64,000 bases of DNA from Flavobacterium sp. ACN6 (GTDB lineage Bacteria; Bacteroidota; Bacteroidia; Flavobacteriales; Flavobacteriaceae). The notes beneath the pieces were generated by a model. That model was not told the DNA's origin. It did no database searches and saw only the letters and a program-made list of their open reading frames with translations. Numbering within the stretch: the stretch's first letter is position 1; each line of letters starts with the position of its first letter. Both the position numbers and the translations under genes were made by a program. Positions 2,504 to 17,481 of this stretch are shown one piece after another. The stretch lies in contig NZ_MRCQ01000005.1 of assembly GCF_002304005.1 (NCBI RefSeq), positions 1 through 64,000 on the forward strand, read 5' to 3'.

Positions 2504-3688
2504 TTATTTTTGCACTGAAAACTTAAAAGTAGTTTTAGTTTTATAATTTTCTCCCGGGTTTAAAACCGTTGTTGGGAAGTTTTTCTGGTTTGGAGAATCT
2601 GGATAATGTTCTGTTTCTAAACAAAGCCCGGTTCTGTGAGCGTATGTTTTTCCATCACGCGTTGGCAATGTTCCATCAAGGAAATTTCCAGAGTAAAACT
2701 GAATTCCAGGTTCATCAGTTGTCATTTCCAAAACTCTTCCGCTGGCTGCGTGGTACACTTTTGCAATAATTGTTTTTCCTTTTTCAGGATTGTTCAATAC
2801 CCAGCAGTGATCGTACCCTTTTCCTCTTTCTAACTGCTCATTTTTAGCTTCGATGTCTTTTCCAATTAATTTTGGTTTTCTGAAATCGAAAGGCGTATTG
2901 GCAACATCTTCTAATTTTCCTGTCGGAATTAAAGTTGCATCAACTGGAACTAATTTATCTGCATTTAAAGTCAGTTCGTGATCTAAGATTGTTTTAGAAA
3001 AATCTCCTGATAAATTGAAATAAGAATGCTGCGTTAAATTCACAACCGTTTTCTTATCAGTCGTTGCTTCGTATAAAACTTCTAGCTGATTGTCATTAGT
3101 CAATGTATAGGTTACAAAAACCTGAAGATTTCCAGGATACCCTTCTTCCATATCTTTACTTAAATAAGATAATTTTAAAGAAGCTGTTTCACCAGATTTT
3201 ACCTCATCGGCTTTCCAAACGACATTAAAATATCCTTGCGGTCCGCCATGCAAAGCATTTGGAGCGTTATTGACTGCCAATTGATATTCTTTCTCATCTA
3301 AAGTGAATTTACCTTTAGCAATTCGGTTTCCGTATCTTCCGATCAAAGCTCCAAAAAATGGATTTTCTTTTTCGTATTGTGCCAAAGAAGTAAAACCGAT
3401 AACTACATTTTCAGAAACTCTTTCTTTATTAGGTACTTTTAAATCTGTAATTCTGCCGCCAAAAGTGATGATGTCAACTTCCATCCCATTTTGGTTTTTC
3501 AATTTATAACTGTCAACTTGTTCTCCTTTAGCTGTTTTTCCGTAAGATGATTTTTCGATTGTAACCGAATCTTTTTTATCTGAAGCAACTGTTTCTGTAT
3601 CTGCTTTTTTATCGCTTTTACATTGAACAGAAATCGCAGCCAAACTCAAAAGGCTTAGACCGAAAACGCAACGTTTTAATACATTCAT
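2504..3688 (-). CDS. galM: Aldose 1-epimerase, lipoprotein form (GalM family)
   Basis: This 394-residue aldose epimerase interconverts alpha and beta anomers of sugars. The N-terminus MNVLKRCVFGLSLLSL followed by AISVQC is a lipoprotein signal with the acceptor Cys near residue 23, so this copy should be anchored outside the cytoplasm. The GalM domain starts near residue 50 (SYGKTAKGEQVDSYKL). It contains HGGPQG with a catalytic-type His, TQHSYFNLSG with the second His, and GLCLETEHYPDSPN with the catalytic Glu. The gene follows araA by 107 bases and probably belongs to the araBDA transcript. A second, cytosolic GalM is encoded at 12026, so mutarotation is supplied on both sides of the membrane. 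Confidence 0.92.
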   Translation of the reverse strand: MNVLKRCVFGLSLLSLAAISVQCKSDKKADTETVASDKKDSVTIEKSSYGKTAKGEQVDSYKLKNQNGMEVDIITFGGRITDLKVPNKERVSENVVIGFTSLAQYEKENPFFGALIGRYGNRIAKGKFTLDEKEYQLAVNNAPNALHGGPQGYFNVVWKADEVKSGETASLKLSYLSKDMEEGYPGNLQVFVTYTLTNDNQLEVLYEATTDKKTVVNLTQHSYFNLSGDFSKTILDHELTLNADKLVPVDATLIPTGKLEDVANTPFDFRKPKLIGKDIEAKNEQLERGKGYDHCWVLNNPEKGKTIIAKVYHAASGRVLEMTTDEPGIQFYSGNFLDGTLPTRDGKTYAHRTGLCLETEHYPDSPNQKNFPTTVLNPGENYKTKTTFKFSVQK

Positions 3689-3795: not shown

Positions 3796-5304
3796 TTATA
3801 GTCCGTGTTGAAACAAATGATAATAAGCTTCATTTGCATTAATCTTATCTTTAAAGTCTCTTACAGTTGTTTTTTCATCAATTACCAATAATTCGATTCC
3901 TGCGATATCTGCAAAATCTTCCATATATTCTGTTGTTATTGACTGGCTGTAAACTGTATGATGTGCTCCACCAGCTAAAATCCAAGCCGTTGCAGCGATA
4001 TCAAGATTTGGTTTACAATCCCATAAAACTCTTGCAACCGGTAATTTTGGTAATTCAGCCATTGGTTTGATAGCTTCAACTTCGTTTACAATTAAACGGA
4101 AACGAGTTCCCATATCAACCAAAGAAACATTAATGGCATCTCCGGCAGGCGAATTAAATACCAAACGAGCTGGATCCTCTTTTCCTCCAATTCCTAAAGG
4201 ATGCACTTCGCAAGAAGGTTTTCCATCAGCAATAGACGGACAAATTTCTAACATATGTGATCCTAAAACGTATGATTTTTGAGGTGTAAAATGGTACGTA
4301 TAATCTTCCATGAAAGAAGTTCCGCCTTCAAGACCAATATTCATTACTTTTAAAGCTCTTACCATTGCGGCTGTTTTCCAATCTCCTTCTCCACCAAAAC
4401 CATAACCGTCGGCCATTAATCTTTGTGTAGCAATTCCTGGTAATTGTTTCCAAGCACCTAGGTTTTCAAACGTATCTGTAAAAGCACCAAAACCTCCTTC
4501 TTCAAGGAAAGCTCTTAATCCTAATTCGATTTTTGCCGCTTCAACTAAGGAACTTCTTTGTGCGCCGCCTTCTTTTAAAGAATCGGTTAAAGTGTATGAT
4601 TGTTCGTAAACTGCCAATAAATCGTTTAATTCTTTTTCTGTTACTTTTTCAATATGCTTAGTAACATCTGAAGAATCGTATCCGTTTACCGAAACTCCAA
4701 AACGAATTTGAGCCTCCACTTTATCGCCTTCTGTAACGGCAACTTCACGCATATTGTCTCCAATACGAGCAACTTTTAGGTTTTGAAGTTCATCCCATCC
4801 TAAAACGACTCTTGACCAGATTTCTAATTTTTTCTGAACTCTTTCGTCTTTCCAATGTCCTACAACAACTTTGCGTTTTTTGCGCATTCTTGACATTATG
4901 AAACCAAATTCACGATCTCCGTGAGCCGATTGGTTTAGGTTCATGAAATCCATATCGATAGATCCCCACGGAATTTCAGCATTGTATTGTGTATGTAAAT
5001 GACATAATGGTTTTTTCAGAATACTCAATCCGCCAATCCACATTTTTGCTGGCGAGAAAGTGTGCATCCAAGCGATAATTCCGATACAGTTTTTAGCCGA
5101 ATTTGCTGCTAAACAAACATCTAAAATCTGCGAAGGAGATTTTACCACATCTTTGTAAACCACTTTTACGGGAATATTAGATGATGCATCTAATCCTTTT
5201 GCTATAATCTCAGAATGTTCTGCTACTTTTCTTAGTGTTTCTTCACCGTATAATTCCTGGCTTCCTACTACAAACCATACTTCTTTTTGAGATATATCTA
5301 TCAT
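3796..5304 (-). CDS. araA: L-arabinose isomerase
   Basis: AraA converts L-arabinose to L-ribulose in the cytosol. The 502-residue length equals the family norm. The metal-binding residues of the E. coli enzyme are in register: Glu306 in YGFGGEGDW, Glu333 in FMEDY, His350 in LGSHMLE and a His at 448/449 in GGAHHT. The N-terminus [14 protein letters not shown] is the usual AraA opening. The gene is third in the order araB, araD, araA and is separated from araD by 137 bases containing short repeats of CTAAAATCT. No copy of the putative AraR palindrome lies in that gap, so expression from the araB promoter is likely. Confidence 0.97.
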
Positions 5305-5441: not shown

Positions 5442-6143
5442 TTACTGTCCGTAATACGAATCTTTTCCGTGTTTGCGGTTGTAATGTTTCTTTATTAGTG
5501 AATCTTTTAATCTTGGTGCATTTGGATTTATTTGTAAAGTCAGATATGCCATTTCTGCCACTACTTCTAAAACTTTACTATTGTAAACCGCTTTTGCAGC
5601 ATTTTTTCCCCACGCAAACGGACCGTGATTTCCAATCAAAATCATCTCTACTTCTTCGTAAGAAAGATTTTTTTCTTTGAAACAATCCAAAATCTGAATT
5701 CCGGTATTGTGTTCGTAATTCCCTTCAATCAGCGAATCTGCCATTGGAGGCGCGCATGGAATATCTGCTGTTAAATGATCTGCATGCGTAGTTCCAAAAA
5801 TTGGAATATCCTGCTGAGACTGCGCCCAAGCCACAGAATAGGTTGCATGCGTATGCGCAACGCCTCCAATATTTGGCCAATTTTTATATAAATAGGCATG
5901 AGTCTTCGTGTCAGATGACGGACGCATAGTTCCTTCTATTATATTGTTATCAAAATCGACAATTACAATATCTTCTGGTTTTAAATCTTCGTAAGGAACG
6001 CCGCTTGGTTTAATGGCAAAAACGCCATTTTTTCGGTCCACAGCACTTACATTCCCAAAAGTATACACTACCAAATTCAATGCATTTAACTGCATATTTG
6101 CTTCGTAGCATTCTTGTTTTAAATCTTTATAAAGAGAGCTCAT
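5442..6143 (-). CDS. araD: L-ribulose-5-phosphate 4-epimerase
   Basis: AraD turns L-ribulose 5-phosphate into D-xylulose 5-phosphate, which enters the pentose phosphate pathway. At 233 residues it matches the class II aldolase/epimerase family. Zinc ligands are visible as His97 and His99 in AHTHATYS and His173 in GNHGPFAWG. The GNVSAV and KPSGVPYEDL motifs bind the phosphate. The start overlaps the end of araB by 17 bases, so the two are translated from one message. Confidence 0.96.
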   Translation of the reverse strand: MSSLYKDLKQECYEANMQLNALNLVVYTFGNVSAVDRKNGVFAIKPSGVPYEDLKPEDIVIVDFDNNIIEGTMRPSSDTKTHAYLYKNWPNIGGVAHTHATYSVAWAQSQQDIPIFGTTHADHLTADIPCAPPMADSLIEGNYEHNTGIQILDCFKEKNLSYEEVEMILIGNHGPFAWGKNAAKAVYNSKVLEVVAEMAYLTLQINPNAPRLKDSLIKKHYNRKHGKDSYYGQ

Positions 6144-7818
6144 GTTGCGATATTTTAATGTTCGGATCTACAAAGGCACTTAATTGTTCGTATGCCAAAA
6201 GCAGTTTATGATAAGCTTCTACTTTGTCTGTTTGAGGGAAATATTCTCCATCAAAATCACTTCCTATTTTTTGACTTGCTTCGATCACGTTTGGATAAAT
6301 TCCAGCTGCAACAGCTGCGTAGATTGCTGCACCTAAAGCTGGAGTTTGGTCTGAAGCTGCGATTTTAATTGGTTTGTTTAAAACATTTGCCAAAGTCTGC
6401 ATGATAAAAGGTGATTTACGAGCAACGCCGCCAATTCCGATTACGCTGTCGATTTTTACACCTTCTTCTTCAAAACGGTCTACAATTTTCTTCGCTCCAA
6501 AACAGATTGCATTTACTAACGCTTTAAAAATATGAGGTGCTTTTGTTCCTAAAGAAAGGTTTGAAATCGCACTTTTTAATTCTTGGTTTGCATCTGGAGT
6601 TCTACGTCCGTTAATCCAGTCTAAAGCAATTGGAAGACTTTCAGAAACTGGAATTTTCTCTGCTTCTTTCGTTAATTCAACAATTAATTTATCACTGAAT
6701 TCTTCTCTTAATTTTTCTTTTTGTTCTTCATTTAATAAAGAAGAGGAACCTAATAAATGTTCTGTCGGCCACATTAATAATTCTTTGTACCAAGCCAATA
6801 AATCTCCAAAAGCAGATTGTCCAGCCTCTAAACCAATAAATCCTGGAATTACAGATCCATCAACTTGTCCGCAGATACCGCGAACGGTTTTTGTTCCAAC
6901 TTCATCATAAGAACCTACCAAAATATCGCAGGTTGAAGTTCCCATAACGCGAACCAAAGTATTTTCTCCAATTTTTGCTCCAACCGCTCCAGAATGCGCG
7001 TCGAAAGTTCCAACAGCCACAATTGTTTCTGTTGAAAGTCCTAAACGATCTGCCCATTCTTGGCTTAAATTTCCAGCAGCTAAATCTGATGTATACGTTT
7101 CATCATATAAATTTCCACGAAGTGTTGCTAAATACGGATGAAGTTTTTCTAAGAATTCAACTGGCGGAAGTCCATTCCAGTCTTCGTGCCACATGGCTTT
7201 GTGACCCGCAGCGCAGCGGCTTCTTTTAAATGTTTTTAAATCTTTGTCTTCAATCAATAAATAAGTCATTAAATCGCAGTGCTCCATCCAAGTATGCGCT
7301 GCATTTTGAACAGCTTCATCTTCTCTGGCAATGTGCAGGATTTTTGCCCAAAACCATTCAGAAGAATAAATTCCTCCTACGTATTTTGTAACGTCTTCTC
7401 CGCCCCAGCTTACTGCCAATTCGTTGATTTCGTTTGCTTCATTTATTGAAGTATGATCTTTCCACAAAACCATCATTGCATTTGGGTTTTCTTCAAAACC
7501 TTTTGTCAAAGCCAAAGGAATTCCATCTTTAGTAACTGGAACTGGAGAAGATCCAGTGGTATCAATACAGATACCGCGAACCAATTTTGGATCTACTTTA
7601 CTTTCTTTTATAACGGTTTGAATCGTAATTTCTAATCCTTCGATATGATCCAAAGGATGCTGACGAAATTGATTTATGGAAGCATCACAATATTGTTTGT
7701 TTTTCCATCTTTTGTAATGAGAAACATTCGATGCCAGCTCCTGTCCATTTTCAGTGTCAATTAGCACCGCGCGAACAGAATCTGTTCCGTAGTCCAATCC
7801 TATTACATAATTTTTCAT
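6127..7818 (-). CDS. araB: L-ribulokinase (FGGY family)
   Basis: AraB phosphorylates L-ribulose with ATP. The 563-residue protein opens with the FGGY-kinase phosphate loop GLDYGTDSVRAVL. It contains GTFDAHSGAVGA with the catalytic Asp region, VMGTSTCDI, and the C-terminal ATP-site block GIGGVARKSPFIMQ with DQTPALGAA. It is the first gene of the minus-strand ara operon and overlaps araD. About 50 bases upstream of its ATG is a perfect palindrome (7868-7886) that I take to be the AraR operator, next to a -7 promoter element at 7844-7851. Confidence 0.96.
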   Translation of the reverse strand: MKNYVIGLDYGTDSVRAVLIDTENGQELASNVSHYKRWKNKQYCDASINQFRQHPLDHIEGLEITIQTVIKESKVDPKLVRGICIDTTGSSPVPVTKDGIPLALTKGFEENPNAMMVLWKDHTSINEANEINELAVSWGGEDVTKYVGGIYSSEWFWAKILHIAREDEAVQNAAHTWMEHCDLMTYLLIEDKDLKTFKRSRCAAGHKAMWHEDWNGLPPVEFLEKLHPYLATLRGNLYDETYTSDLAAGNLSQEWADRLGLSTETIVAVGTFDAHSGAVGAKIGENTLVRVMGTSTCDILVGSYDEVGTKTVRGICGQVDGSVIPGFIGLEAGQSAFGDLLAWYKELLMWPTEHLLGSSSLLNEEQKEKLREEFSDKLIVELTKEAEKIPVSESLPIALDWINGRRTPDANQELKSAISNLSLGTKAPHIFKALVNAICFGAKKIVDRFEEEGVKIDSVIGIGGVARKSPFIMQTLANVLNKPIKIAASDQTPALGAAIYAAVAAGIYPNVIEASQKIGSDFDGEYFPQTDKVEAYHKLLLAYEQLSAFVDPNIKISQHELSL

Positions 7819-7843
7819 TCTAATTTTATTTTTAAAATATTGA

Positions 7844-7851
7844 CAAATATA
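7844..7851 (-). promoter_or_regulatory. Candidate -7 element of the araB promoter
   Basis: Read on the minus strand this is TATATTTG, a perfect match to the Bacteroidota -7 consensus TAnnTTTG. The place where the -33 TTG should lie falls inside the operator palindrome at 7868-7886 and has no clean TTG. Such a weak -33 fits a regulated promoter. Confidence 0.55.
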
Positions 7852-7867
7852 GATATAATTATTTTAT

Positions 7868-7886
7868 AAGTGTATAAAAAACACTT
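7868..7886. promoter_or_regulatory. Putative AraR operator, araB
   Basis: AAGTGT-N7-ACACTT is a perfect 6+6 palindrome about 50 bases before araB. The same pattern with the same 7-base spacer occurs before the arabinofuranosidase (9668), the NUDIX regulator (10064) and the symporter (15600). Overlap with the -33 zone suggests repression. Confidence 0.65.
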
Positions 7887-8048
7887 AATTGAAATTGCAT
7901 AATTAATTTTTGCTAAAAATGCATTGAAACAGCATTTTAGCTTTCAAACAAAAAATAAATGTTAACAATACATTTACAGCGCTGCGATTATTTCAACTTT
8001 AAAATAAAAACTATAACTTTTTGAAAATGCATTTATATTAATTTCCTC

Positions 8049-9593
8049 TTATTTCCCTTCCAAAACTAAAACTGAAAAAGGAGGAATTGTAATTTCCAAC
8101 TTTCCTTTTTTATTTTCAAAACCTTTAAAAGCAACAGGAACAATTTTATTCGGGTTTTCGAAAGAATTATAATCCTGCAGTTTTGAAGCCGTAATTATAG
8201 TTCCAGTAAAATTTTTCACGCCAAGATCTTTAACATCAATTTCGATTTTGTTTTTATTTACCGCATCAACATTTACAAGTGAAATATGCACAGCACCGCT
8301 TTGATCTTTTGAAACAGATGCAGATACAGCCGGAATTGTTTGTCCGTTATAAGTATATAAAGGAGATTTAAAATCTACTGGCAATAATTTTGCGTCTTGA
8401 TGTACATTGTACATTTTCATCACATGATACGTTGGAGTTGTAATCATTTTGGCCTTGTCGGTTAGGATCACGGCTTGAAGTACATTAACACATTGTGCCA
8501 AGTTTGCCATACGAACACGATCTGCATGATTATTAAAAATATTTAAAGTTGCTCCAGCCAAAACAGCATCTCGCATTGTATTTTGCTGATATAAAAATCC
8601 TGGATTTGTTCCTTTTTGAACCTCGTACCAACCTCCCCATTCATCAACAATCATAGCCACTTTTTTCTCTGGATCATATTTGTCCATAATTGCAGCATGT
8701 TTGGTCACCAATTCTTCCATTTTCAAAGCAGACTGCATAGTCAGAAAATATTCTTTTTCTGTAAAATCAACATCTCCGCCTTTTTTATCCCAATTAATTA
8801 CGGCATAATGATGAACACCTAATCCGCCTAACATTTTTAACGGAATATTTTTCATCAATACTTCTGTCCAATTATAATCAGAACTATTCGATCCAGAAGC
8901 AATTCTTGTTATACCGCCTGTGTTACCCCAATCTGACATAAAAGTGGCAAATTTTCGGTATTCATTAGCGTAATAATCGGCTGTCATATTACCGCCGCAA
9001 CCCCAAGCTTCGTTACCAATTCCCCAATATTTTACTTTCCACGGCTGTGTTCTTCCGTTTTTCTTACGAAGATCACTCATCGGACTTTCTCCTGCAAAAT
9101 TGGTATATTGAACCCAGTCTGCTAATTCTTGAACTGTTCCGCTTCCCACATTTCCAGACAAATAAGGTTCTGCTCCTAATAATTCACACATATTTAAAAA
9201 ATCATGTGTCCCGAAACTATTGTCTTCTGTTACTCCTCCCCACCATTGGTTTACAATTGTCGGACGCTGTTCTTTTGGACCAATTCCATCTTTCCAATGA
9301 TAAGTATCTGCAAAACAACCGCCTGGCCATCTTAAATTAGGAATTTTTAAATCTTTTAATGCTTTAATAATGTCATTTCGAACTCCATTTGTGTTTGGAA
9401 TTTTTGAAGTGTCGCCAACAAAAAATCCACCATAAATACAGTGGCCTAAGTGTTCTGCAAAATGACCATAAATATCTCTATTGATAATTGGTGCAGATGC
9501 ATCGTTTTTAATCGAAATAACAACAGATTCTTTTTGGGCAGAAATGGCTTGGATAAAAAATATCGCAAACAATACGAAAAATGGTTTCTTCAT
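8049..9593 (-). CDS. Secreted alpha-L-arabinofuranosidase, GH51
   Basis: This 514-residue enzyme should release terminal L-arabinofuranose from arabinan or arabinoxylan fragments outside the cytoplasm. MKKPFFVLFAIFFIQAISAQ is a signal peptide. GH51 landmarks follow in order: HFAEHLG, LRWPGGCFADTYHWKDGIGP (seen in part), the acid/base Glu195 in WGIGNEAWG, and the nucleophile Glu318 in IVDEWGGW. A C-terminal beta domain ends in PPFSVLVLEGK, as in other family members. It faces away from the NUDIX regulator gene, and a shared 540-base gap holds one operator copy for each. Substrate supply for araBAD is its evident role. Confidence 0.93.
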   Translation of the reverse strand: MKKPFFVLFAIFFIQAISAQKESVVISIKNDASAPIINRDIYGHFAEHLGHCIYGGFFVGDTSKIPNTNGVRNDIIKALKDLKIPNLRWPGGCFADTYHWKDGIGPKEQRPTIVNQWWGGVTEDNSFGTHDFLNMCELLGAEPYLSGNVGSGTVQELADWVQYTNFAGESPMSDLRKKNGRTQPWKVKYWGIGNEAWGCGGNMTADYYANEYRKFATFMSDWGNTGGITRIASGSNSSDYNWTEVLMKNIPLKMLGGLGVHHYAVINWDKKGGDVDFTEKEYFLTMQSALKMEELVTKHAAIMDKYDPEKKVAMIVDEWGGWYEVQKGTNPGFLYQQNTMRDAVLAGATLNIFNNHADRVRMANLAQCVNVLQAVILTDKAKMITTPTYHVMKMYNVHQDAKLLPVDFKSPLYTYNGQTIPAVSASVSKDQSGAVHISLVNVDAVNKNKIEIDVKDLGVKNFTGTIITASKLQDYNSFENPNKIVPVAFKGFENKKGKLEITIPPFSVLVLEGK

Positions 9594-9613
9594 AAATTGT
9601 GGTTTTTTGATAA

Positions 9614-9644
9614 TTAGAAAATATTGTGGTTATATATTTTCTAA
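9614..9644 (-). promoter_or_regulatory. Hairpin in the 5' leader of the arabinofuranosidase gene
   Basis: TTAGAAAATAT and ATATTTTCTAA form a perfect 11-base-pair stem around a 9-base loop, between the operator at 9668 and the start codon at 9593. It may stabilise or control the message. The word ATTGTGGTT occurs in the loop region and again next to the start. Confidence 0.5.
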
Positions 9645-9667
9645 TAATCTTGGTTATTCAGTTTAAT

Positions 9668-9686
9668 AAGTGTTTGTTTAACATTT
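9668..9686. promoter_or_regulatory. Putative AraR operator, arabinofuranosidase gene
   Basis: AAGTGT-N7-ACATTT, one mismatch from a perfect palindrome, 75 bases before the start codon of the GH51 gene. Confidence 0.6.
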
Positions 9687-10063
9687 GTAAATTTAAACAA
9701 AAAAAGTTCGCATAAAAAAATAAAAATCGCAGAACAACTGGTTGTAAAAAACAGATTTGATAATTTAGTTCGGAAAATCGTTAGAAATAAAGGCGTAACA
9801 CAAGATTTTGAAACTCAAACAAAAAGTTAATAATCTGAAAAATCGACAAAAAAACTCAAAAATTGCTTATTTTATAACAACATTCCAATTTTTTAAATTC
9901 TGATTATCAAATAATATTCTTCCTTTTAATTCCCTTTTAAAAATGTTTCTACCTTTGGATCATTATTTTGATTTAAAATTGAGAAGATTGAGATAAAAAG
10001 ATCTTTATTTTCAATAATAAACATCAAGTAATCCAGCTTCTTAATTTACTATTGTTTTAACAT
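9687..10063. other. Gene-free stretch between the divergent GH51 and araR-like genes
   Basis: AT-rich sequence without a credible ORF, flanked by the two operator copies. I see no extra gene or RNA structure in it. Confidence 0.5.
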
Positions 10064-10082
10064 AAGTGTAAAATCAACATTA
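10064..10082. promoter_or_regulatory. Putative AraR operator, autoregulation of araR
   Basis: AAGTGT-N7-ACATTA lies 55 bases before the start of the NUDIX regulator gene. It shares the left arm, the preceding AT and the spacer length with the araB site. Its presence suggests that the regulator controls itself. Confidence 0.55.
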
Positions 10083-10136
10083 ATAAATTATGATACGTTT
10101 TAAGAAGTTTATATCTTTACAACCAAAATATTATAT

Positions 10137-10826
10137 ATGCTAAATAGTTATAGCTCTGCTGATAAAGTTTTACTGGCGGTTGACTGCATCATTTTCGGAT
10201 TCGATAATGAGGGTCTGAAAATACTTTTAATTCAAAGAGATTTTGAACCCGAAAAAGGAAAATGGTCTTTGATTGGAGGATTTTTAAAGCGTGACGAAGT
10301 TTTAGATGCTGCGGCTATTCGAATACTAAATACTTATACAGGTCTTAACGATATTTATATGGAGCAGTTATATGCTTACAGCGAAATCGATCGTGATCCT
10401 GTCGAAAGAACAATCTCAGTTTCTTATTTTGCATTGATTAATATCGAAAACCACAATGCTGAATTGATTAAAAATTATCACGCAGAATGGTTTCCTATTA
10501 ATGATGCGCCAAACTTAATTTTTGACCACAACGAAATGGTTCAAAATGCCATTAAGAGACTTCGCTACAAAACTTCTGTTAAACCAATTGGTTTTGAATT
10601 ACTTCCAGAAAAGTTCACCATGCGTCAGCTTTTAGAGTTATATGAAGCAATTTTGAGCAAAGAATTAGACAAAAGAAACTTCATTAGTAAAATCAATTCT
10701 TTGGAAATCTTAAATAAATTGGACGAAAAAGATATGCAGTCTTCTCGAAAAGGTTCTTATTTATATACCTTTAATAAAGAGAAATACGAAGAAAAATTAC
10801 TTAATGATTTTGTGCTTAATTTGTAA
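10137..10826 (+). CDS. araR: NUDIX-family transcriptional regulator of arabinose genes (AraR-like)
   Basis: This 229-residue protein has an N-terminal NUDIX-like domain (about 1-145) and a C-terminal winged-helix domain (from about 150, FTMRQLLELYEAIL and FISKINSLEIL). The layout is that of NrtR and of the Bacteroides AraR that senses L-arabinose. The Nudix box is degenerate: Gly48, Glu54, Arg62, Gly69 and Leu70 remain, but the RExxEE metal-binding core reads RILNTY, so hydrolase activity should be lost. It is divergent from the arabinofuranosidase, and a site of the shared palindrome lies before it. Naming it AraR rests on family knowledge and this context. Confidence 0.88.
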   Translation: MLNSYSSADKVLLAVDCIIFGFDNEGLKILLIQRDFEPEKGKWSLIGGFLKRDEVLDAAAIRILNTYTGLNDIYMEQLYAYSEIDRDPVERTISVSYFALINIENHNAELIKNYHAEWFPINDAPNLIFDHNEMVQNAIKRLRYKTSVKPIGFELLPEKFTMRQLLELYEAILSKELDKRNFISKINSLEILNKLDEKDMQSSRKGSYLYTFNKEKYEEKLLNDFVLNL

Positions 10827-10925
10827 TTTAAAGAATTGAGTGAAAATTATTTCAAACACATAAAAGCATCGTTTTAGAACTTCAAAAAGGCGTTTCACTT
10901 GCTTAAATGCAAATAGCAAAACATC

Positions 10926-11924
10926 TTACAAAGAATGCCGTAATATAAGAGCAGATTTGTTTTCAATCTGCTCTTTTGTTCCTTTCAAAACCATATCGGC
11001 CAAAATTTTTCCCATCAATTCAAAATTGGTTGAAATGGTCGTAATTCCGTTTGCCGCAATCTTCTTTAGTGCTGTTTCATTATAAGAAATAATTCCAAAA
11101 TCTTCTCCTAATTTTAGGTTTCTTCCCATTGCATTTTCTATAACTAAAAGCAAATCGCGGTCATGAGGAATAACATATAAGTCTCCCAATGCGATGGATT
11201 GATTGCTGAAATCAGAAATAATTTCATAATCATAATTATATTGCTGGCAGAAAGATTCAAAACCCAATTTCATTCCCGGCGGCTCTCTAAAACCAGGGAA
11301 AATTAAAATCAGTTTTTTATATTTTTCCAATCTTTTTTTACCTTTTAGTAATCCTTCAAAAATATCTTTTTTGTGATTTTGATAAATGGCAGGAAACATT
11401 TTTAAATCAGGATTGGTCTGATCCAAAATAATTACGTCGTTTACTGGTAGGGTTTTTATAGAATTGACGATATCGTTTAAGTTCGTCGGCATGATTATAT
11501 ATTTTGTATAATTTCCGTTGCTGTCGTTTATCAGTTTTTTGAAAACCTGAACATTAAAATGATGGAAGAAAATATCAACCTGAACATTCTTTCCAATATT
11601 TTTAAGAAACGAATTATAAATATCTTCTTTAAAAATATTAAGCTCGTCAAAAAGCAGGAAAACCTTCTGAGTAATAGTGATTTCAACACTTTTAACATAA
11701 TATCCTTTTCCAGGAATAGCATAAATAATTCCTCTTTTCTTTAATTCGTCATACGCTAAAAGCACCGTATCGCGAGATAATGAAAAGCTCAAACACACTT
11801 TATTTACTGATGGAAGACGATCGCCTTTTTTCAAATTACCTTCTTCAATAGCTTTTTCTATTGAAAGAATAATCTGCTTATATTTTGGAAGGCCAATATT
11901 ATTTTGAATTGAAATAATGTTCAC
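10926..11924 (-). CDS. GntR-family regulator with LacI-type sensor domain
   Basis: This 332-residue protein starts with a GntR winged helix (about 1-75): PKYKQIILSIEKAIEEG, GDRLPSVNKVC and LSRDTVLLAYDELKKRG are classic. The rest resembles a periplasmic-binding-protein-like sugar sensor of the LacI type (GLLKGKKRL, FGIISYNETALKKI, ISTNFELMGKILADMVL). It is divergent from galM-galK-galT, with about 100 bases between starts, so it probably controls the galactose genes in answer to a sugar ligand. A ten-base-spaced direct repeat at 11956-11972 is a candidate binding site. The inducer cannot be read from sequence. Confidence 0.88.
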   Translation of the reverse strand: MNIISIQNNIGLPKYKQIILSIEKAIEEGNLKKGDRLPSVNKVCLSFSLSRDTVLLAYDELKKRGIIYAIPGKGYYVKSVEITITQKVFLLFDELNIFKEDIYNSFLKNIGKNVQVDIFFHHFNVQVFKKLINDSNGNYTKYIIMPTNLNDIVNSIKTLPVNDVIILDQTNPDLKMFPAIYQNHKKDIFEGLLKGKKRLEKYKKLILIFPGFREPPGMKLGFESFCQQYNYDYEIISDFSNQSIALGDLYVIPHDRDLLLVIENAMGRNLKLGEDFGIISYNETALKKIAANGITTISTNFELMGKILADMVLKGTKEQIENKSALILRHSL

Positions 11925-11955
11925 AATAAAGTCATTTTGACTATTAATATTAAAA

Positions 11956-11972
11956 ACTGGTAGGTACTGGTA
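11956..11972. promoter_or_regulatory. Candidate GntR operator in the galM/gntR divergent region
   Basis: ACTGGTA occurs at 11956 and again at 11966, ten bases apart, which puts both on the same face of the helix. It lies between the two divergent starts, beside candidate -7 elements on both strands. Confidence 0.45.
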
Positions 11973-11974
11973 TG

Positions 11975-12001
11975 CAAAGATAAAGAATGTTTCTATTTTT
12001 G
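11975..12001. promoter_or_regulatory. Divergent candidate -7 elements, gntR (minus) and galM (plus)
   Basis: CAAAGATA at 11975-11982 reads TATCTTTG on the minus strand, and TATTTTTG lies at 11994-12001 on the plus strand. Both fit TAnnTTTG. Neither has a clear TTG at the right distance, so the assignment is tentative. Confidence 0.4.
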
Positions 12002-12025
12002 GATTTCATTTTTGGTAAAAATAAT

Positions 12026-13078
12026 ATGGAAATAAAACACATATCGCATTTAAAGGAGGTCCATAATTGTAAATTATTCGGTTTAATGCCCAATAAAGAA
12101 GAAATTTATTCTTTTGAATTGTCAAACAAAAACGGAATGAAAGTCCAGATCATCAATTATGGTGCAACGGTAACTTCCATCCAAATTCCTTTAAATGGAA
12201 AATTGACAGATGTTGTTTTAGGTTTCGATAATTTAGAGTCTTATTTAGAATCTTATAATTTACCAAGCGCTCCTTATTTTGGAACTACAGTTGGGCGTTA
12301 TGCTGGACGTATTCATAATGGTACTTTTAGTATAGATGATAAAAAATTTCAGCTTGATGGAAATAATAATGGCAACACACTTCACGGCGGAAATATGGGA
12401 TTTGGACGAAAAGTCTGGAGCGTAACCAATGCTGCAGCTGGAGAAAATCCTTCGATTACTTTTGGCCTTCTAAGTGAAGATTTAGATGAAAATTTCCCTG
12501 GCGAAATGACCGTTTATTTGACTTATACCTTAACGGAAGAAAACGAATTAAAATTAGAATACAAAGCTTCATCAACAGAAGATACGGTGATCAATTTGAC
12601 ACATCACAGTTATTTTAACCTTGACGGACATTATGGAAATGTTTTAGAACAGCAAATGTTTATCAAATCGGATAAAATGCTTGAAACCAATTCAGACAAT
12701 ATCCCGACAGGAAATTATACCGATTTAACGAATCATGATTTTGATTTCAGAAACACTAAAAACTGTCCGTTTCCAATTGACAATTCTTTTGTAGTGAATT
12801 CAAAAACTGAAATCGTGGCGCAGTTAATCAGCTTAAAAAATAAACTTAGAATGGATGTGTATACGGATCAGCCAAGTGTACATATATATGTAGGAGGCAA
12901 TTGTTTTGGAAAACTAAAAGGAAAAGAAAACATCGCTTACAATGCCCAAAGCGGTATTTGTTTTGAAACCCAAAATTTTCCAGATGCTCCAAATCATTCC
13001 CATTTTCCAAATTCAGTTTTGAAAAAAGGCGACAAATACACGCAGAAAACACTTTATAAATTTGAAAGTTTAGATTAA
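12026..13078 (+). CDS. galM: Aldose 1-epimerase, cytosolic (galactose mutarotase)
   Basis: This 350-residue GalM supplies the alpha-galactose anomer used by galactokinase. I chose the ATG at 12026 (MEIKHISHL). The frame extends to 11987, but that would overlap the candidate -7 element and add an unlikely hydrophobic leader. Family marks are GRYAGRIHNG, HGGNMGFG, LTHHSYFNLDG with catalytic His, and GICFETQNFPDAPNH with catalytic Glu. No signal peptide is present, unlike the lipoprotein paralogue at 2504. It is followed by galK after 227 bases that hold a strong hairpin. Confidence 0.92.
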   Translation: MEIKHISHLKEVHNCKLFGLMPNKEEIYSFELSNKNGMKVQIINYGATVTSIQIPLNGKLTDVVLGFDNLESYLESYNLPSAPYFGTTVGRYAGRIHNGTFSIDDKKFQLDGNNNGNTLHGGNMGFGRKVWSVTNAAAGENPSITFGLLSEDLDENFPGEMTVYLTYTLTEENELKLEYKASSTEDTVINLTHHSYFNLDGHYGNVLEQQMFIKSDKMLETNSDNIPTGNYTDLTNHDFDFRNTKNCPFPIDNSFVVNSKTEIVAQLISLKNKLRMDVYTDQPSVHIYVGGNCFGKLKGKENIAYNAQSGICFETQNFPDAPNHSHFPNSVLKKGDKYTQKTLYKFESLD

Positions 13079-13158
13079 TATAATAACCGTTGGAAGAGAT
13101 AAAATAAAATAGTTTCATCCAACAAATAAAATTTAATTGAATCTGCTGAAATCTTTTA

Positions 13159-13203
13159 AAATCTGCGTGAAATACTTTTACCAAGATTTTTTCACGCAGA
13201 TTT
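13159..13203. repeat. Inverted repeat between galM and galK
   Basis: AAATCTGCGTGAAA and TTTCACGCAGATTT are perfect 14-base arms around a 17-base loop. The same words (ATCTGCGTG) occur in other gaps of this window (near 22120 and 39830). It may terminate or process the galM message. Confidence 0.7.
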
Positions 13204-13305
13204 ATACAGATTAAAGCAGATTTAAATTTAAGCGAAAGAGTAAAATTTAAAAAAATTCACTCACAATAATAAATCTTAAAAAACCACAATACAACTAACT
13301 ATATA

Positions 13306-14466
13306 ATGAATGATATTTTAATACAAAACACCGTCGCTTTTTTTGAGAAATCTTTCGGGTCTTCTCCTCAAAAAACGGTACTTTCTCCAGGAAGAATTAA
13401 TATTATTGGAGAACATATTGACTACAATGACGGTTATGTTCTGCCTGCTGCAATTGACAAAGTTATCTGTTTTGCTTTTGAAAAAAACAATACTAAAACT
13501 TCTAAAATAATTGCCATCGATTTAAATGAAGAATTTGAAATCGATTTGACGCAGGAAGTAACTTTGAGCGATGTTGTTTGGACAAATTATATTAGAGGCG
13601 TAATCAAACAATTGCAGGATAACGGATTTTCTTTCGACGGTTTCAATTGTGTTTTCAGCAGTAATATTCCAGTTGGTTCAGGATTATCTTCTTCTGCAGC
13701 TTTAGAATGCGGTATGATTTTCGGTATCAAATCGCTTTTTGATTTAAGAATTGAGAAAGTTGACATTTCTTTATTAGGCCAAAAAGCAGAACACTGGGTG
13801 GGTATTAACTGCGGCATAATGGATCAGTTTTCAAGCGTTCATGGTGTTGAAAATAAGGTAATCAAATTAGACTGCAACACTTTAGATTTTGAATATCACA
13901 ATGCCGATTTCAAAGATTATTCCTTGATTTTATTGGATTCTAATGTAAAGCATTCACTTTTTACATCAGAATATAATACGAGAAGAATTGAATGTGAAGA
14001 AGGATTATCAATTATAAAAGCTCATTTTCCAGAAGTAAAAAGTTTTAGAGACGCTTCAGAAGAACAGGTTTTGAGTCTTAAAGATAAAATGACTGAAAAA
14101 GTTTTCAGCAGAGTTCATTTTGTAGTAAAAGAAATTAACCGCGTCATCAAAGCCTGCGAAGCTTTAGATCAAGGAAATATTGAACTTTTAGGAGAATTGC
14201 TTTTTGAAACACATTATGGCCTATCAAAAGAATATGAAGTAAGCTGCGAAGAATTAGATTTCCTTGTAGATACTGCAAAAGAAGACAATTCTATTATCGG
14301 TTCAAGGCTTATGGGGGGCGGTTTTGGAGGTTGTACAATTAATTTAGTTAAAAAAGGTCAGGAAAATGAGGTAAAACGTAAGTTTTCAAATCTTTATTTA
14401 GATAAATTTGGAATTGAATTAAAATTCTATGATGTAAAAATCTCAAACGGAACACAACTAGTTTAA
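13306..14466 (+). CDS. galK: Galactokinase
   Basis: GalK phosphorylates alpha-D-galactose at C1, first step of the Leloir pathway. The 386-residue protein shows the galactokinase signature GRINIIGEHIDYNDGYVLP (29-47), the GHMP phosphate loop PVGSGLSSSAALE (122-134), the catalytic Asp in GIMDQFSS, and the C-terminal GSRLMGGGFGGCT. It lies 17 bases before galT, so the two are co-transcribed. No galE is found in the window, so the epimerase must be encoded elsewhere. Confidence 0.96.
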   Translation: MNDILIQNTVAFFEKSFGSSPQKTVLSPGRINIIGEHIDYNDGYVLPAAIDKVICFAFEKNNTKTSKIIAIDLNEEFEIDLTQEVTLSDVVWTNYIRGVIKQLQDNGFSFDGFNCVFSSNIPVGSGLSSSAALECGMIFGIKSLFDLRIEKVDISLLGQKAEHWVGINCGIMDQFSSVHGVENKVIKLDCNTLDFEYHNADFKDYSLILLDSNVKHSLFTSEYNTRRIECEEGLSIIKAHFPEVKSFRDASEEQVLSLKDKMTEKVFSRVHFVVKEINRVIKACEALDQGNIELLGELLFETHYGLSKEYEVSCEELDFLVDTAKEDNSIIGSRLMGGGFGGCTINLVKKGQENEVKRKFSNLYLDKFGIELKFYDVKISNGTQLV

Positions 14467-14483
14467 TACCACAACACACTGCA

Positions 14484-15542
14484 ATGAAAAATTTTGACAT
14501 TAACGAAGATCCGCACAGACGCTTCAACCCGCTAATTAACGAATGGGTCTTGGTTTCACCTCATCGTTCAAAACGCCCTTGGCAGGGACAAAACGAAACT
14601 ATTTCAACAGAAGAACTTCCAAAATACGATCCAACTTGTTATTTGTGTCCGGGAAATGTTCGTGCTAATGGAGTAAACAATCCTGCGTATGAAAGCAGTT
14701 TTGTTTTTGAAAATGATTTTGCTGCAATGAAACAGGATGAAATTATTTTTGAAGATGATATTAAACATACTTTCTTTAAAGCAAAACCAGAACAGGGAAT
14801 TTCGAGAGTAGTTTGCTTTTCGCCAAGACACGATCTTACTTTACCAGAAATGGAAATTGCGGATATTGAAAATATCATCAAAACCTGGCAGAAAGAATAT
14901 ACCGATTTAGGAAACATAAAATATATTAACCACGTTCAGATTTTTGAAAACAAAGGAAGTGTAATGGGCTGCAGCAACCCGCATCCGCATGGACAAATCT
15001 GGGCGCAGTCTTCGTTACCAACTCAGGTTGAAAAAACGCATCACAGCTTAAAATCCTATTACGATAAAAATAAAAGAACATTGTTGGAAGATTATGTTCA
15101 AGCCGAATTGAAAGTTGGAGAGCGAATTGTAATTGAGAACGATCACTTTGTAGCACTAGTTCCGTTTTGGGCAATCTGGCCTTACGAAACTATGATTGTA
15201 AGCAAAAGAGCCGTAAACAAAATCACAGATTTTACCGCTGAAGAAAGCACGGCATTTGCTAAAATTTTAAAGCAGTTAACGACGAAGTACGACAATTTAT
15301 TTAATACTTCTTTCCCTTATTCTTCAGGAATCCATCAATCGCCAACAGACGGTTTTGATCATCCGGAATGGCATTTTCATATGCATTTTTATCCGCCTTT
15401 GTTAAGATCGGCAACTGTAAAGAAATTTATGGTTGGATATGAAATGCTGGGCGAATCGCAGCGTGATATAACACCTGAAAAAAGTGCCGAAATTTTGAGA
15501 CAGCTTTCAGATGTGCATTATAAGAGTTTAGTAAAAGTGTAA
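14484..15542 (+). CDS. galT: Galactose-1-phosphate uridylyltransferase
   Basis: GalT exchanges UMP between UDP-glucose and galactose 1-phosphate. The 352-residue protein has the zinc-type CYLC pair (52, 55) and the active-site triad HPHGQ (167-171) with His169 as nucleophile. The second histidine cluster is EWHFHMHFYPP. Its length is usual for the E. coli type. It closes the galM-galK-galT group. Confidence 0.96.
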   Translation: MKNFDINEDPHRRFNPLINEWVLVSPHRSKRPWQGQNETISTEELPKYDPTCYLCPGNVRANGVNNPAYESSFVFENDFAAMKQDEIIFEDDIKHTFFKAKPEQGISRVVCFSPRHDLTLPEMEIADIENIIKTWQKEYTDLGNIKYINHVQIFENKGSVMGCSNPHPHGQIWAQSSLPTQVEKTHHSLKSYYDKNKRTLLEDYVQAELKVGERIVIENDHFVALVPFWAIWPYETMIVSKRAVNKITDFTAEESTAFAKILKQLTTKYDNLFNTSFPYSSGIHQSPTDGFDHPEWHFHMHFYPPLLRSATVKKFMVGYEMLGESQRDITPEKSAEILRQLSDVHYKSLVKV

Positions 15543-15599
15543 TAATTCTAGGTAGAGTTAAGTGCAAAATGAGAAAATTTAACACAAAAACCCCATTAT

Positions 15600-15618
15600 A
15601 AATGTAAAAAACACATTT
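15600..15618. promoter_or_regulatory. Putative AraR operator, symporter gene
   Basis: AAATGT-N7-ACATTT is a perfect 6+6 palindrome with the same spacer as the araB site and the same preceding AT. It lies about 30 bases before a TACATTTG element. It links the symporter to the arabinose regulon rather than to galactose alone. Confidence 0.55.
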
Positions 15619-15647
15619 GCTGATGGTTCATTTATAAATTTTTATTC

Positions 15648-15655
15648 TACATTTG
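15648..15655 (+). promoter_or_regulatory. Candidate -7 element of the symporter promoter
   Basis: TACATTTG fits TAnnTTTG. The nearest TTG upstream (15617) is 28 bases away, longer than usual, so the -33 part is weak. About 140 bases remain to the start codon. Confidence 0.4.
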
Positions 15656-15795
15656 ACTTTGGCTTTTATTTTCATAAAAAAACTACGGAAATAAAACACA
15701 TCTTGCAATTTTAACAAGATTACACAACACAAAAACTAATTTAAAACTAAATAAAATTTAACCCTGTATAATAATTATTTAAAATACTACTAACA

Positions 15796-17481
15796 ATGAA
15801 CCAAAACCTCGCTTTCGCAGATTATGCGGTTTTTATTATCTATTTTATCGTAGTCTCTGTCTACGGTTACACCGTTTATCGCAAACGTAAACAAGACGAA
15901 CAAGATGCTAAAGCTTACTTTTTGGCTGAAGGAAATTTAACTTGGTGGGCAATTGGAGCTTCTTTAATTGCTTCTAATATTTCTGCAGAACAATTCATCG
16001 GAATGAGTGGTGAAGGTTTCTTTTTAGGAATCGCTGTTGCTGCTTACGAATGGCTTGCTGCCGTTGCACTTATTATTGTGGCTGTATGGTTTATTCCGGT
16101 ATATCTTAAAAACAAGATTTACACAATGCCGCAATTCTTAAAAACACGTTACAACGAATCGACTGCTTTGATTATGGCGGTTTTCTGGTTGTTTTTGTAT
16201 GTTTTTGTAAACTTAACTTCTATTTTATATTTAGGAGCAGTCGCTATTAATGGTCTTGCTGGAGGAGAATATCTTCATGTAATCATGGTAGGATTGGCTG
16301 TATTTGCCTTGTTTATTTCTCTTGGAGGAATGAAAGTTGTGGCTTACACAGACGTTATTCAGGTTGCTGTATTGATTATTGGAGGTTTAGTAACCTCTTA
16401 TATTGCATTGACAACTGTTGGACAAGCTTTTGGCGTAGGCGAAAATGCAATCGCAGGTTTCAAAGTTTTAATGAAAGAAGCGCCGGAGCATTTCAAAATG
16501 ATTATTCCAAAACCAACTGCGACTTCATCTCAATTGGAAATCGATAAATATTTAACTTTCCCAGGTTTGATGTCTTACCTTGCGGGTATCTGGATTATCA
16601 ATTTAAATTATTGGGGTTGTAACCAATACATTACGCAAAGAGCACTTGGAGCAGATTTACAAACCGCTCGTACAGGAATCTTATTTGCTGGTATGTTAAA
16701 ATTATTAATGCCGCTTATCGTAATGTTACCAGGTATTGCTGCTTACGTTTTATATACAAACGGACAATTACCTCAATTAGTTGGAGGAAAAGATGGAGCT
16801 TATTCTGCTATTTTAACATTCCTTCCAACTGGATTAAAAGGGCTTTCTGTTGCCGCTTTAACGGCTGCGATTGTAGCTTCTTTAGCTGGAAAAGTAAACA
16901 GTATTTCTACAATTTATACATTAGATATTCATAAAAAATACATTCAAAAAGAAGCTGGCGAAAAACAACAGGTAAACATTGGTAGAATTGCCGTTTTTGC
17001 TGCAATGCTTTTAGCAGTATTATTTACATGGAATGATGTTTTAGGAATCGGCGGTGTTGGAGGATTTACATATATCCAAAAATACACTGGATTCATCAGC
17101 CCTGGAGTTTTTGCTATGTTCTTCCTTGGTATGTTCTGGAAAAGAACTACTGGAACTGCAGCGATCGTGGGTGTACTTTTAGGATTCTTATTATCTGTTT
17201 TATTCAACGAATACGCTCCTGCTTTATTCGGAAACGAAACACTTTTATACACGGCTTACCCTAACGGAAAAGGAGCTTTCGAAATTCCATTCCACATTTG
17301 TATGGGATTATCATTCTTCTTTACAATGTTAGCAATGATCGGAATTAGTTTTGCAGGACCTAAAGTAAATCCTAAAGCATTTGAAATTGATTCTGAAATG
17401 TTTAAAGTTAAACCGCAGACAACAGTCTTAATCGTAATTACGTTATTGATTATTGTTGCGCTTTATGTTAAGTTCTGGTAA
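15796..17481 (+). CDS. Sodium/sugar symporter, SGLT type
   Basis: This 561-residue inner-membrane protein has about 14 predicted hydrophobic segments and belongs to the solute:sodium symporter family. The SGLT block SLIASNISAEQFIGMSG (57-72) and the later FKGLSVAALTAAIVASLAG-type segment (GLSVAALTAAIVASLAG) are those of bacterial galactose/glucose carriers such as vSGLT. Position after galT suggests galactose, but the upstream palindrome shared with araB suggests L-arabinose, as in Bacteroides araT. Both sugars differ only at C5, so dual use is possible. A strong terminator follows. Confidence 0.92.
   Translation: MNQNLAFADYAVFIIYFIVVSVYGYTVYRKRKQDEQDAKAYFLAEGNLTWWAIGASLIASNISAEQFIGMSGEGFFLGIAVAAYEWLAAVALIIVAVWFIPVYLKNKIYTMPQFLKTRYNESTALIMAVFWLFLYVFVNLTSILYLGAVAINGLAGGEYLHVIMVGLAVFALFISLGGMKVVAYTDVIQVAVLIIGGLVTSYIALTTVGQAFGVGENAIAGFKVLMKEAPEHFKMIIPKPTATSSQLEIDKYLTFPGLMSYLAGIWIINLNYWGCNQYITQRALGADLQTARTGILFAGMLKLLMPLIVMLPGIAAYVLYTNGQLPQLVGGKDGAYSAILTFLPTGLKGLSVAALTAAIVASLAGKVNSISTIYTLDIHKKYIQKEAGEKQQVNIGRIAVFAAMLLAVLFTWNDVLGIGGVGGFTYIQKYTGFISPGVFAMFFLGMFWKRTTGTAAIVGVLLGFLLSVLFNEYAPALFGNETLLYTAYPNGKGAFEIPFHICMGLSFFFTMLAMIGISFAGPKVNPKAFEIDSEMFKVKPQTTVLIVITLLIIVALYVKFW

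Follow-up and report, generated by a model that had tools for sequence, protein, structure and literature searches.

Introduction

The closest described counterpart of the system studied here is AraR of Bacteroides thetaiotaomicron (BtAraR, BT0354), an NrtR-family arabinose repressor of Bacteroides and Prevotella, for which orthologues were named in 17 Bacteroides and 15 Prevotella species and structures are available as PDB 5BS6, 5DD4, 5DDG and 5DEQ (PMC4666351). Its operator, GTGT-N7-ACAC, is known from a crystal complex and from the oligonucleotides of electrophoretic mobility shift assays (EMSA), its arabinose contacts are Arg34, Arg86 and His131, and the same account terms six base-contacting residues, Lys179, Arg180, Asn181, Lys184, Lys204 and Arg205, absolutely conserved among Bacteroidetes orthologues (PMC4666351). 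L-Arabinose releases BtAraR from DNA, and the protein represses in vivo (PMC4666351, PMC5061871). Here we describe a palindrome, AARTGT-N7-ACAYTW, that recurs in the arabinose locus of Flavobacterium sp. ACN6, within a 64-kb stretch of DNA that is called the window. Comparative sequence evidence makes it very probable that the copies in the window are the operators of the locus's own AraR repressor.

AraR of Bacillus subtilis has the same name, responds to the same sugar and is likewise a repressor relieved by arabinose, but it combines a GntR-type DNA-binding domain with a LacI-type effector domain (PMC4666351); our comparison with it is by protein, not by operator. The NUDIX regulator of the window does not have these domains, whereas its neighbour at 10926 does. 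With the ADP-ribose-responsive NrtR regulators of NAD the window protein shares a NUDIX-like domain and the NrtR winged helix, but it lies far under the cut-off of the NrtR ADP-ribose (ADPR) repressor model (141.8 bits against 400), and it matches the NrtR structure 3gz5 far more weakly (E 2.4e-22) than BtAraR 5bs6 (E 2e-67).

Results

Probable operator sites in the window

The initial annotation had placed four copies of the palindrome upstream of araB, a GH51 gene, the NUDIX regulator gene and a symporter gene, and on reading the DNA its coordinates are exact, with the same N7 spacer and the preceding AT both seen at 7868, 9668, 10064 and 15600. Two of the four are perfect palindromes, as it had said: the half-sites are fully complementary at 7868 and 15600, and not at 9668 and 10064. 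Its list was correct as far as it went, but it overlooked another exact copy, AAATGTTAACAATACATTT, which occupies 7957-7975 at a distance of 89 bp from the one at 7868, and the sites at pectin genes described below. All five exact sites fall between genes and have AT in front. There are nine strand matches at these five places, whereas 100 dinucleotide shuffles averaged 0.23 and never reached nine. When up to two mismatches were allowed there were 89 matches against 91 expected, so the signal in the window is confined to exact matches.

The regulator

The product of the regulator gene aligns with the BtAraR structure (PDB 5bs6) without a gap over 218 aa and carries a NUDIX-like domain followed by an NrtR/AraR winged helix (PF00293, PF21906, PF19368); judged by its sequence, it is a BtAraR orthologue. 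The arabinose triad is all present in the window protein, and across the aligned rows Arg34 and Arg86 are each found in 81/81 and His131 in 80/81; the pocket residue Val92 of BtAraR is Thr. Lys179, Arg180 and Asn181 are kept among the base-contacting residues. The window sites have the spacing and core of the BtAraR operator, with R replacing the first G. Scored on the Flavobacterium position weight matrix (PWM), three published Bacteroides sites gave 15.4, 1.3 and -3.8, mostly due to their differing flanks. Loss of Arg183 as the cause of the relaxed third base is unsupported (14 G and 6 A with Arg183 versus 15 G and 17 A without it, Fisher p 0.15). A tree of 55 rows joins BtAraR to three rows belonging to family f11; the window protein falls in an 18-row clade made up of its own family and three others.

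The Flavobacterium sp. ACN6 genome holds five NrtR-type matches. Three are paralogues on contig C9, at 45, 45 and 40% identity (L109 8942-10415, L110 9115-9807), in which Arg34 is replaced by His, His and Gln; a tandem pair adjoins a TonB-receptor gene and a GH2-type protein.

Conservation of the sites

The genus sample consisted of 150 genomes, that of strain ACN6 included, of which 64 match the regulator at E <=1e-30. Genomes with an orthologue at >=63% identity were called araR+ (42 genomes; the next match is at 51%) and the other 108 araR-. Forty stretches round regulator genes, from 39 genomes and 758,627 bases long in all, make up the genus loci. A further set, the named loci, comprises the best 80 of 569 relatives, from Flavobacterium and other genera, e.g. 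Zunongwangia, Leeuwenhoekiella, Galbibacter and Maribacter. Half-site conservation in the named loci (0.94-1.00) is high by construction, the sites having been chosen by pattern, and was not used.

The spacing proved strict. In the genus loci the pattern with N7 occurred at 139 places in 38/40 stretches, against 0-5 places for each of N0-N6 and N8-N15; the two stretches without a site are L052, which has the 51% paralogue, and L054, a 6-kb contig. In the named loci N7 gave 248 places in 78/80, and the remaining lengths between N1 and N13 gave 0-13 apiece. A site lay within 350 bp upstream of araR in 68/79 named loci, of araB in 29/37, of the symporter gene in 30/35 and of the GH51 gene in 33/68. 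None lay within that distance of araM (0/27), araA (0/33), araD (0/36), gntR (0/40), galM (0/36), galK (0/35), galT (0/35), SDR (0/18) or araC (0/18), and at the named-locus genes the spacer controls gave one N6 match in 79 at araR, one in 68 at GH51 and no N8 match. The GH51 gene sits within a susCD operon in many loci, and the site is then at the operon's first gene. The site nearest to araR is within 120 bp in 52/80 loci and at 121-350 bp in 17; 11 have none. The motif is therefore conserved upstream of ara genes in related Flavobacterium genomes, which is the check that the initial annotation had proposed.

The site also keeps company with the regulator. Strand hits of the strict form TAARTGT-N7-ACAYTT number 514 (2.47/Mb) among the 42 araR+ genomes and 130 (0.40/Mb) among the 108 araR- genomes, a density about six times higher in the former, while its reversed control gave 179 (0.86/Mb) and 245 (0.75/Mb), respectively (Mann-Whitney p 1e-18 for the strict motif and 0.27 for the control, uncorrected for kinship). 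The araA gene is present in 39/150 genus genomes, and 39/39 are araR+. Three araR+ genomes lack it: G003 (89% complete), G074 (75%) and G096 (99%). In G096 (L078) araR and its own site are kept, araA is absent and the symporter gene has no operator, possibly the picture of a decaying regulon.

In the genome of strain ACN6 (5,125,685 bases, 44 contigs) the pattern occurs at 20 places, 15 of them beyond the window, and four of these 15 are inside reading frames of at least 100 aa (L009, L013, L018, L020). Five of the 20 are packed into 7.75 kb; the number of further places expected so close to any given one is about 0.06. Clustering and conservation are the features of the pattern that are not due to chance.

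Beyond the genus, 71/395 genomes of the phylum match the regulator at E 1e-59, 12 of them within the genus, and stretches were taken from 40 of the other 59. A looser core with N7 was found at 27 intergenic places in 18 of these loci, against 0-3 intergenic places for the other spacers from N1 to N13. In distant families the site is also found upstream of araM or between galK and araR (L152, L156, L167). Regulators of distant loci that keep Lys179 have an intergenic site in 17/29 cases versus 1/11 for the others (p 0.01), which is suggestive only, the others being mostly kin.

Promoters and predicted operator pairs

In flavobacteria the -7 box reads TAnnTTTG and spans -12 to -5 (PMC9723704). 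Upstream of araB such a box, TATATTTG, lies 26 bp from the centre of the 7868 operator, and the box of the symporter gene, TACATTTG at 15648-15655, starts at +39 from the operator centre. Counted with looser gene criteria than the 350-bp site counts, the box starts at +24 to +27 from the operator centre in 27/29 araB regions (shuffle rate 0.04) and at +36 to +39 in 34/34 symporter regions (shuffle rate 0.12); at the pectin susC genes it is at -28 to -31 in 18/18. Computing from these box positions, we infer operator centres near -37 (araB), -50 (symporter) and +18 (pectin susC). A sigma-70 scan of 7700-16000 gave 38 matches versus 37.6 in shuffles.

Paired operators stand at fixed distances. 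Two sites at araB were seen in 14 named loci, and in 13 of these they are 89 bp apart; 23/37 have fewer than two. An arabinan-type susC, taken as an open reading frame of at least 850 aa divergent from araR, occurs in 35/80 named loci, and TonB-receptor, SusD and GH43 domains were confirmed in one locus outside this set, L057. Two core sites precede it in 23 loci, with 22 of the pairs exactly 99 bp apart (22/27 by matrix). The DNA between the sites has a mean identity of 81% in the 99-bp susC pairs and 77% in the 89-bp araB pairs; the distance from the proximal site to the start codon varies (32-49 for arabinan susC, 56-59 for araB). The exact -7 consensus is mostly absent inside the 99-bp pair, and a near match, TTAATTTG, was seen by eye in most segments. 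The fixed spacing of the operators is suggestive, though no proof, of a constraint such as looping.

Between the araB operators lies a second palindrome, GCTAAAATGC-N9-GCATTTTTAGC, which is the sole place of its kind in the genome of strain ACN6 at <=3 mismatches. It is not conserved in L056, L084 and L085, and it differs from the Crp-like palindrome described upstream of araM in Bacteroides (PMC3878776). Possibly it is the site of another regulator.

Solitary operators were also seen. In L188, L197, L201 and L207 a predicted AraR operator with a high matrix score (16.4 to 27.6) lies between convergent araR and gntR with no protein gene after it, and in L198, L202, L217 and L231 the start of a transaldolase gene, identified by eye, follows the operator between araR and gntR. 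A terminator-like hairpin after the orphan operator of L188 may be araR's own end; none scored in L201. An orphan operator between araR and gntR may be the scar of a deleted operon or may serve a small arabinose-controlled RNA.

Genes of the locus

The features are collected in Table 1. Gene names were checked against NCBIfam and Pfam; the names galK and galT come from reading alone. The locus also contains galM and a GntR-type regulator gene (10926-11924), whose product has a GntR domain and a periplasmic-binding-type domain and which adjoins the galactose genes. In locus L085 the symporter gene directly follows araR, and no gal gene was found in 20 kb. The initial annotation had treated the four genes as one arabinose regulon with the NUDIX AraR as its regulator, a view supported by the 5bs6 orthology and the operator geometry.

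Table 1. Arabinose locus of Flavobacterium sp. ACN6: predicted features, in window coordinates
Feature	Position	Strand	Evidence
Aldose 1-epimerase, araM-like mutarotase	2504..3688	-	Aldose_epim; gene order kept in relatives
araA, L-arabinose isomerase	3796..5304	-	NF002795 828 bits
araD, L-ribulose-5-phosphate 4-epimerase	5442..6143	-	NF006047
araB, ribulokinase, predicted target	6127..7818	-	NF003154 735 bits
-7 promoter element of araB, TATATTTG	7844..7851	-	13/13 aligned araB upstream regions
AraR operator (predicted), proximal, upstream of araB, AAGTGT-N7-ACACTT	7868..7886	.	exact match; PWM 25.7 (site belongs to the PWM training set)
Second palindrome, GCTAAAATGC-N9-GCATTTTTAGC, between araB operators	7912..7941	minus-strand letters	kept in close relatives
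AraR operator (predicted), distal, upstream of araB	7957..7975	.	exact match; PWM 20.8
Alpha-L-arabinofuranosidase, GH51 per the initial annotation, predicted target	8049..9593	-	Alpha-L-AF_C
AraR operator (predicted) upstream of GH51 gene	9668..9686	.	exact match; PWM 23.8
AraR operator (predicted) upstream of araR, autoregulation	10064..10082	.	exact match
araR, NUDIX-type (NrtR family) repressor, 229 aa	10137..10826	+	5bs6 E 2e-67; NrtR_WHD, NUDIX, AraR_C
AraR operator (predicted) upstream of sodium/solute symporter	15600..15618	.	exact match
Weak second symporter site, overlaps -7 box	15636..15654	.	1 mismatch; PWM 12.6
Sodium/solute symporter, presumed arabinose importer, predicted target	15796..17481	+	SSF

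Sites at pectin genes

Contig C13 holds six of the 15 places outside the window, one of them within a reading frame. Its genes include apiosidase-like and BT_1020-like genes, GH106, rhamnosidases, GH127, GH95, GH28, a pectinesterase, a GH141-domain protein and SusC/SusD. We take the apiosidase and BT_1020 to be pointers to rhamnogalacturonan II, which is a very complex pectin, and we read the C13 genes as a rhamnogalacturonan-II-type locus. The 150 genomes were searched for the pectin genes by protein, not by motif, and the upstream DNA was scored with a matrix made from the ara-locus sites, with a cut-off of 15; the genome of strain ACN6 counts once in each tally by construction. Scores of at least 15 were found upstream of susC in 20/22 orthologues (17.1 to 24.8), of BNR in 18/24 (15.9 to 22.7), of GH141 in 9/26 and of pectate lyase in 11/30, against 1/2040 shuffled pieces. 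The susC genes of G005 and G051 lack the site, and 22/22 genomes with the pectin susC are araR+. Pectate lyase sites occur in 11/25 araR+ versus 0/5 araR- genomes (p 0.13; loci from 30/35 matched genomes). A transketolase gene stands behind an operator in some relatives (3/5 in the named loci). From the conserved sites, the regulon of the genus probably includes the rhamnogalacturonan-II-type locus.

Discussion

That the palindromes of the window are operators of AraR rests on the sites and their fixed spacing, their conservation, their co-occurrence with the regulator, the BtAraR orthology, the triad and the positions of the -7 box at three promoter groups. DNA binding, repression and arabinose relief are ascribed by analogy with AraR of B. 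thetaiotaomicron. Without L-arabinose, an AraR dimer would sit on AARTGT-N7-ACAYTT, one winged helix per half-site, and would block transcription of araB-araD-araA-araM, the GH51 gene, araR and the symporter gene. Intracellular L-arabinose would enter the NUDIX-like pocket, and its binding would rotate the DNA-binding domains and so free the operators.

Other owners of the site were weighed. The neighbouring GntR-type regulator has the make-up of B. subtilis AraR, with GntR and periplasmic-binding-type domains, and sits between both gene groups, so that the palindrome could be its operator in a joint control of arabinose and galactose genes. In the named loci, however, neither gntR nor galM, galK or galT has a site upstream, the site occurs in 78/80 loci whereas gntR with usable upstream DNA was found in only 40, and the geometry is that of the BtAraR operator. 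The neighbour was rejected on its lack of sites at gntR and the gal genes, and its ownership is highly improbable. An NrtR-type paralogue encoded at another place in the genome would belong to the same domain family, and the five genome matches leave one more beyond the three on C9. Those three were rejected, because Arg34 is gone and no site scoring >=12 lies in the 20-kb stretches round them; the fourth paralogue is outside this comparison. The site moreover tracks araR across genomes, and it is just as improbable that a paralogue owns or shares it.

Granting that AraR binds the sites, it might act chiefly as an activator or as a dual regulator, given that the operator position differs among promoters and that the distal araB site is far upstream. 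Against this, the inferred operator positions overlap or flank the promoter, and in the B. thetaiotaomicron araR mutant araM is described as being as high on glucose as on arabinose (PMC5061871); either mode is very unlikely. Finally, the sites at pectin genes could be look-alike operators of another regulator, with a regulon limited to the ara locus, which would be compatible with AraR ownership of the window sites. They are patchy at GH141 and pectate lyase, and the rhamnogalacturonan-I susC of B. thetaiotaomicron was reported unchanged in the araR mutant (PMC5061871). But the ara-locus matrix recovers sites at most susC and BNR orthologues that shuffled pieces almost never match, and every genome with the pectin susC is araR+, so that this alternative is unlikely, if less so than the preceding ones.

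Several observations weigh against ownership of the sites by AraR, or against parts of it. At three of the six base-contacting positions the residue differs: Ser replaces Lys184, Arg replaces Lys204 and Lys replaces Arg205. Genome-wide the bare pattern shows no enrichment over its reversed control (30 strand hits versus 28). Frequent occurrence elsewhere, which the initial annotation had named as telling against its proposal, holds in part for the bare pattern, but the stricter form tracks araR over 150 genomes, and some of the other places are upstream of pectin genes with conserved sites. The araR+ genomes G092, G096 and G099 have only 3, 0 and 2 strict hits, and among araR- genomes G018 has 9 (versus 3 strand hits for its reversed control) and seven more have 4-5. 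A site within 350 bp is absent at 11/79 araR, 8/37 araB, 5/35 symporter and 35/68 GH51 genes. Where a GH51 gene or susC diverges from araR, a single site could act on either of the two. Neither araR (3/69) nor GH51 (1/34) has a TAnnTTTG box at a constant position. Outside the genus the intergenic looser core was present in only 18/40 loci, the other 22 having been tried with one looser pattern. The named loci and the loci of the genome set come partly from the same genomes, and all are related by descent. Lastly, loss of araR in B. thetaiotaomicron is described as altering the kinetics and not the steady state of arabinan-locus mRNA (PMC5061871), so a site upstream of susC need not mean strong control.

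With these points set against it, AraR ownership of the window sites is still strongly favoured, and the resulting system resembles that of BtAraR in its orthologous protein, arabinose triad, GTGT-N7-ACAC geometry and paired operators at the main ara operon, and in having an arabinofuranosidase and an arabinan-type susC among its targets, which are predicted here. It differs in several respects. The half-site has A or G as its third base here and G in the three EMSA sites of BtAraR, the flanking T and A are conserved here, and Lys184, Lys204 and Arg205 are replaced. Here araR stands alone, rather than inside araMPRDAB, and the centres of paired operators are separated by 89 or 99 bp, compared with 24 or 63 for BtAraR as computed from the 3-bp and 42-nt gaps and the 21-bp motif (PMC4666351). 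The targets predicted here extend to the rhamnogalacturonan-II-type locus and, in certain relatives, to transketolase or transaldolase. Our searches of open-access papers showed no flavobacterial AraR operator. The kind of regulon is known; this branch, the relaxed operator and the enlarged target list appear, by these searches, to be new.

It is a tentative and rather doubtful extension that one cytoplasmic arabinose sensor gates arabinose catabolism together with the outer-membrane import of arabinan and rhamnogalacturonan II, the arabinan susC being held by a repression loop via operators 99 bp apart that flank its presumed promoter. We know of no NrtR-family regulator that works by such a loop.

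In sum, a repressor-operator pair solved experimentally in gut Bacteroides now has, on strong comparative evidence, a counterpart in Flavobacterium and its relatives, and a matrix is now at hand for annotating the regulon. The natural changes at residues 183, 184, 204 and 205, combined with the same operator core, open the determinants of recognition to testing. For the organism, the prediction is that arabinose would control the rhamnogalacturonan-II-type locus, in contrast to the rhamnogalacturonan-I susC, which the B. thetaiotaomicron regulator leaves unaffected.

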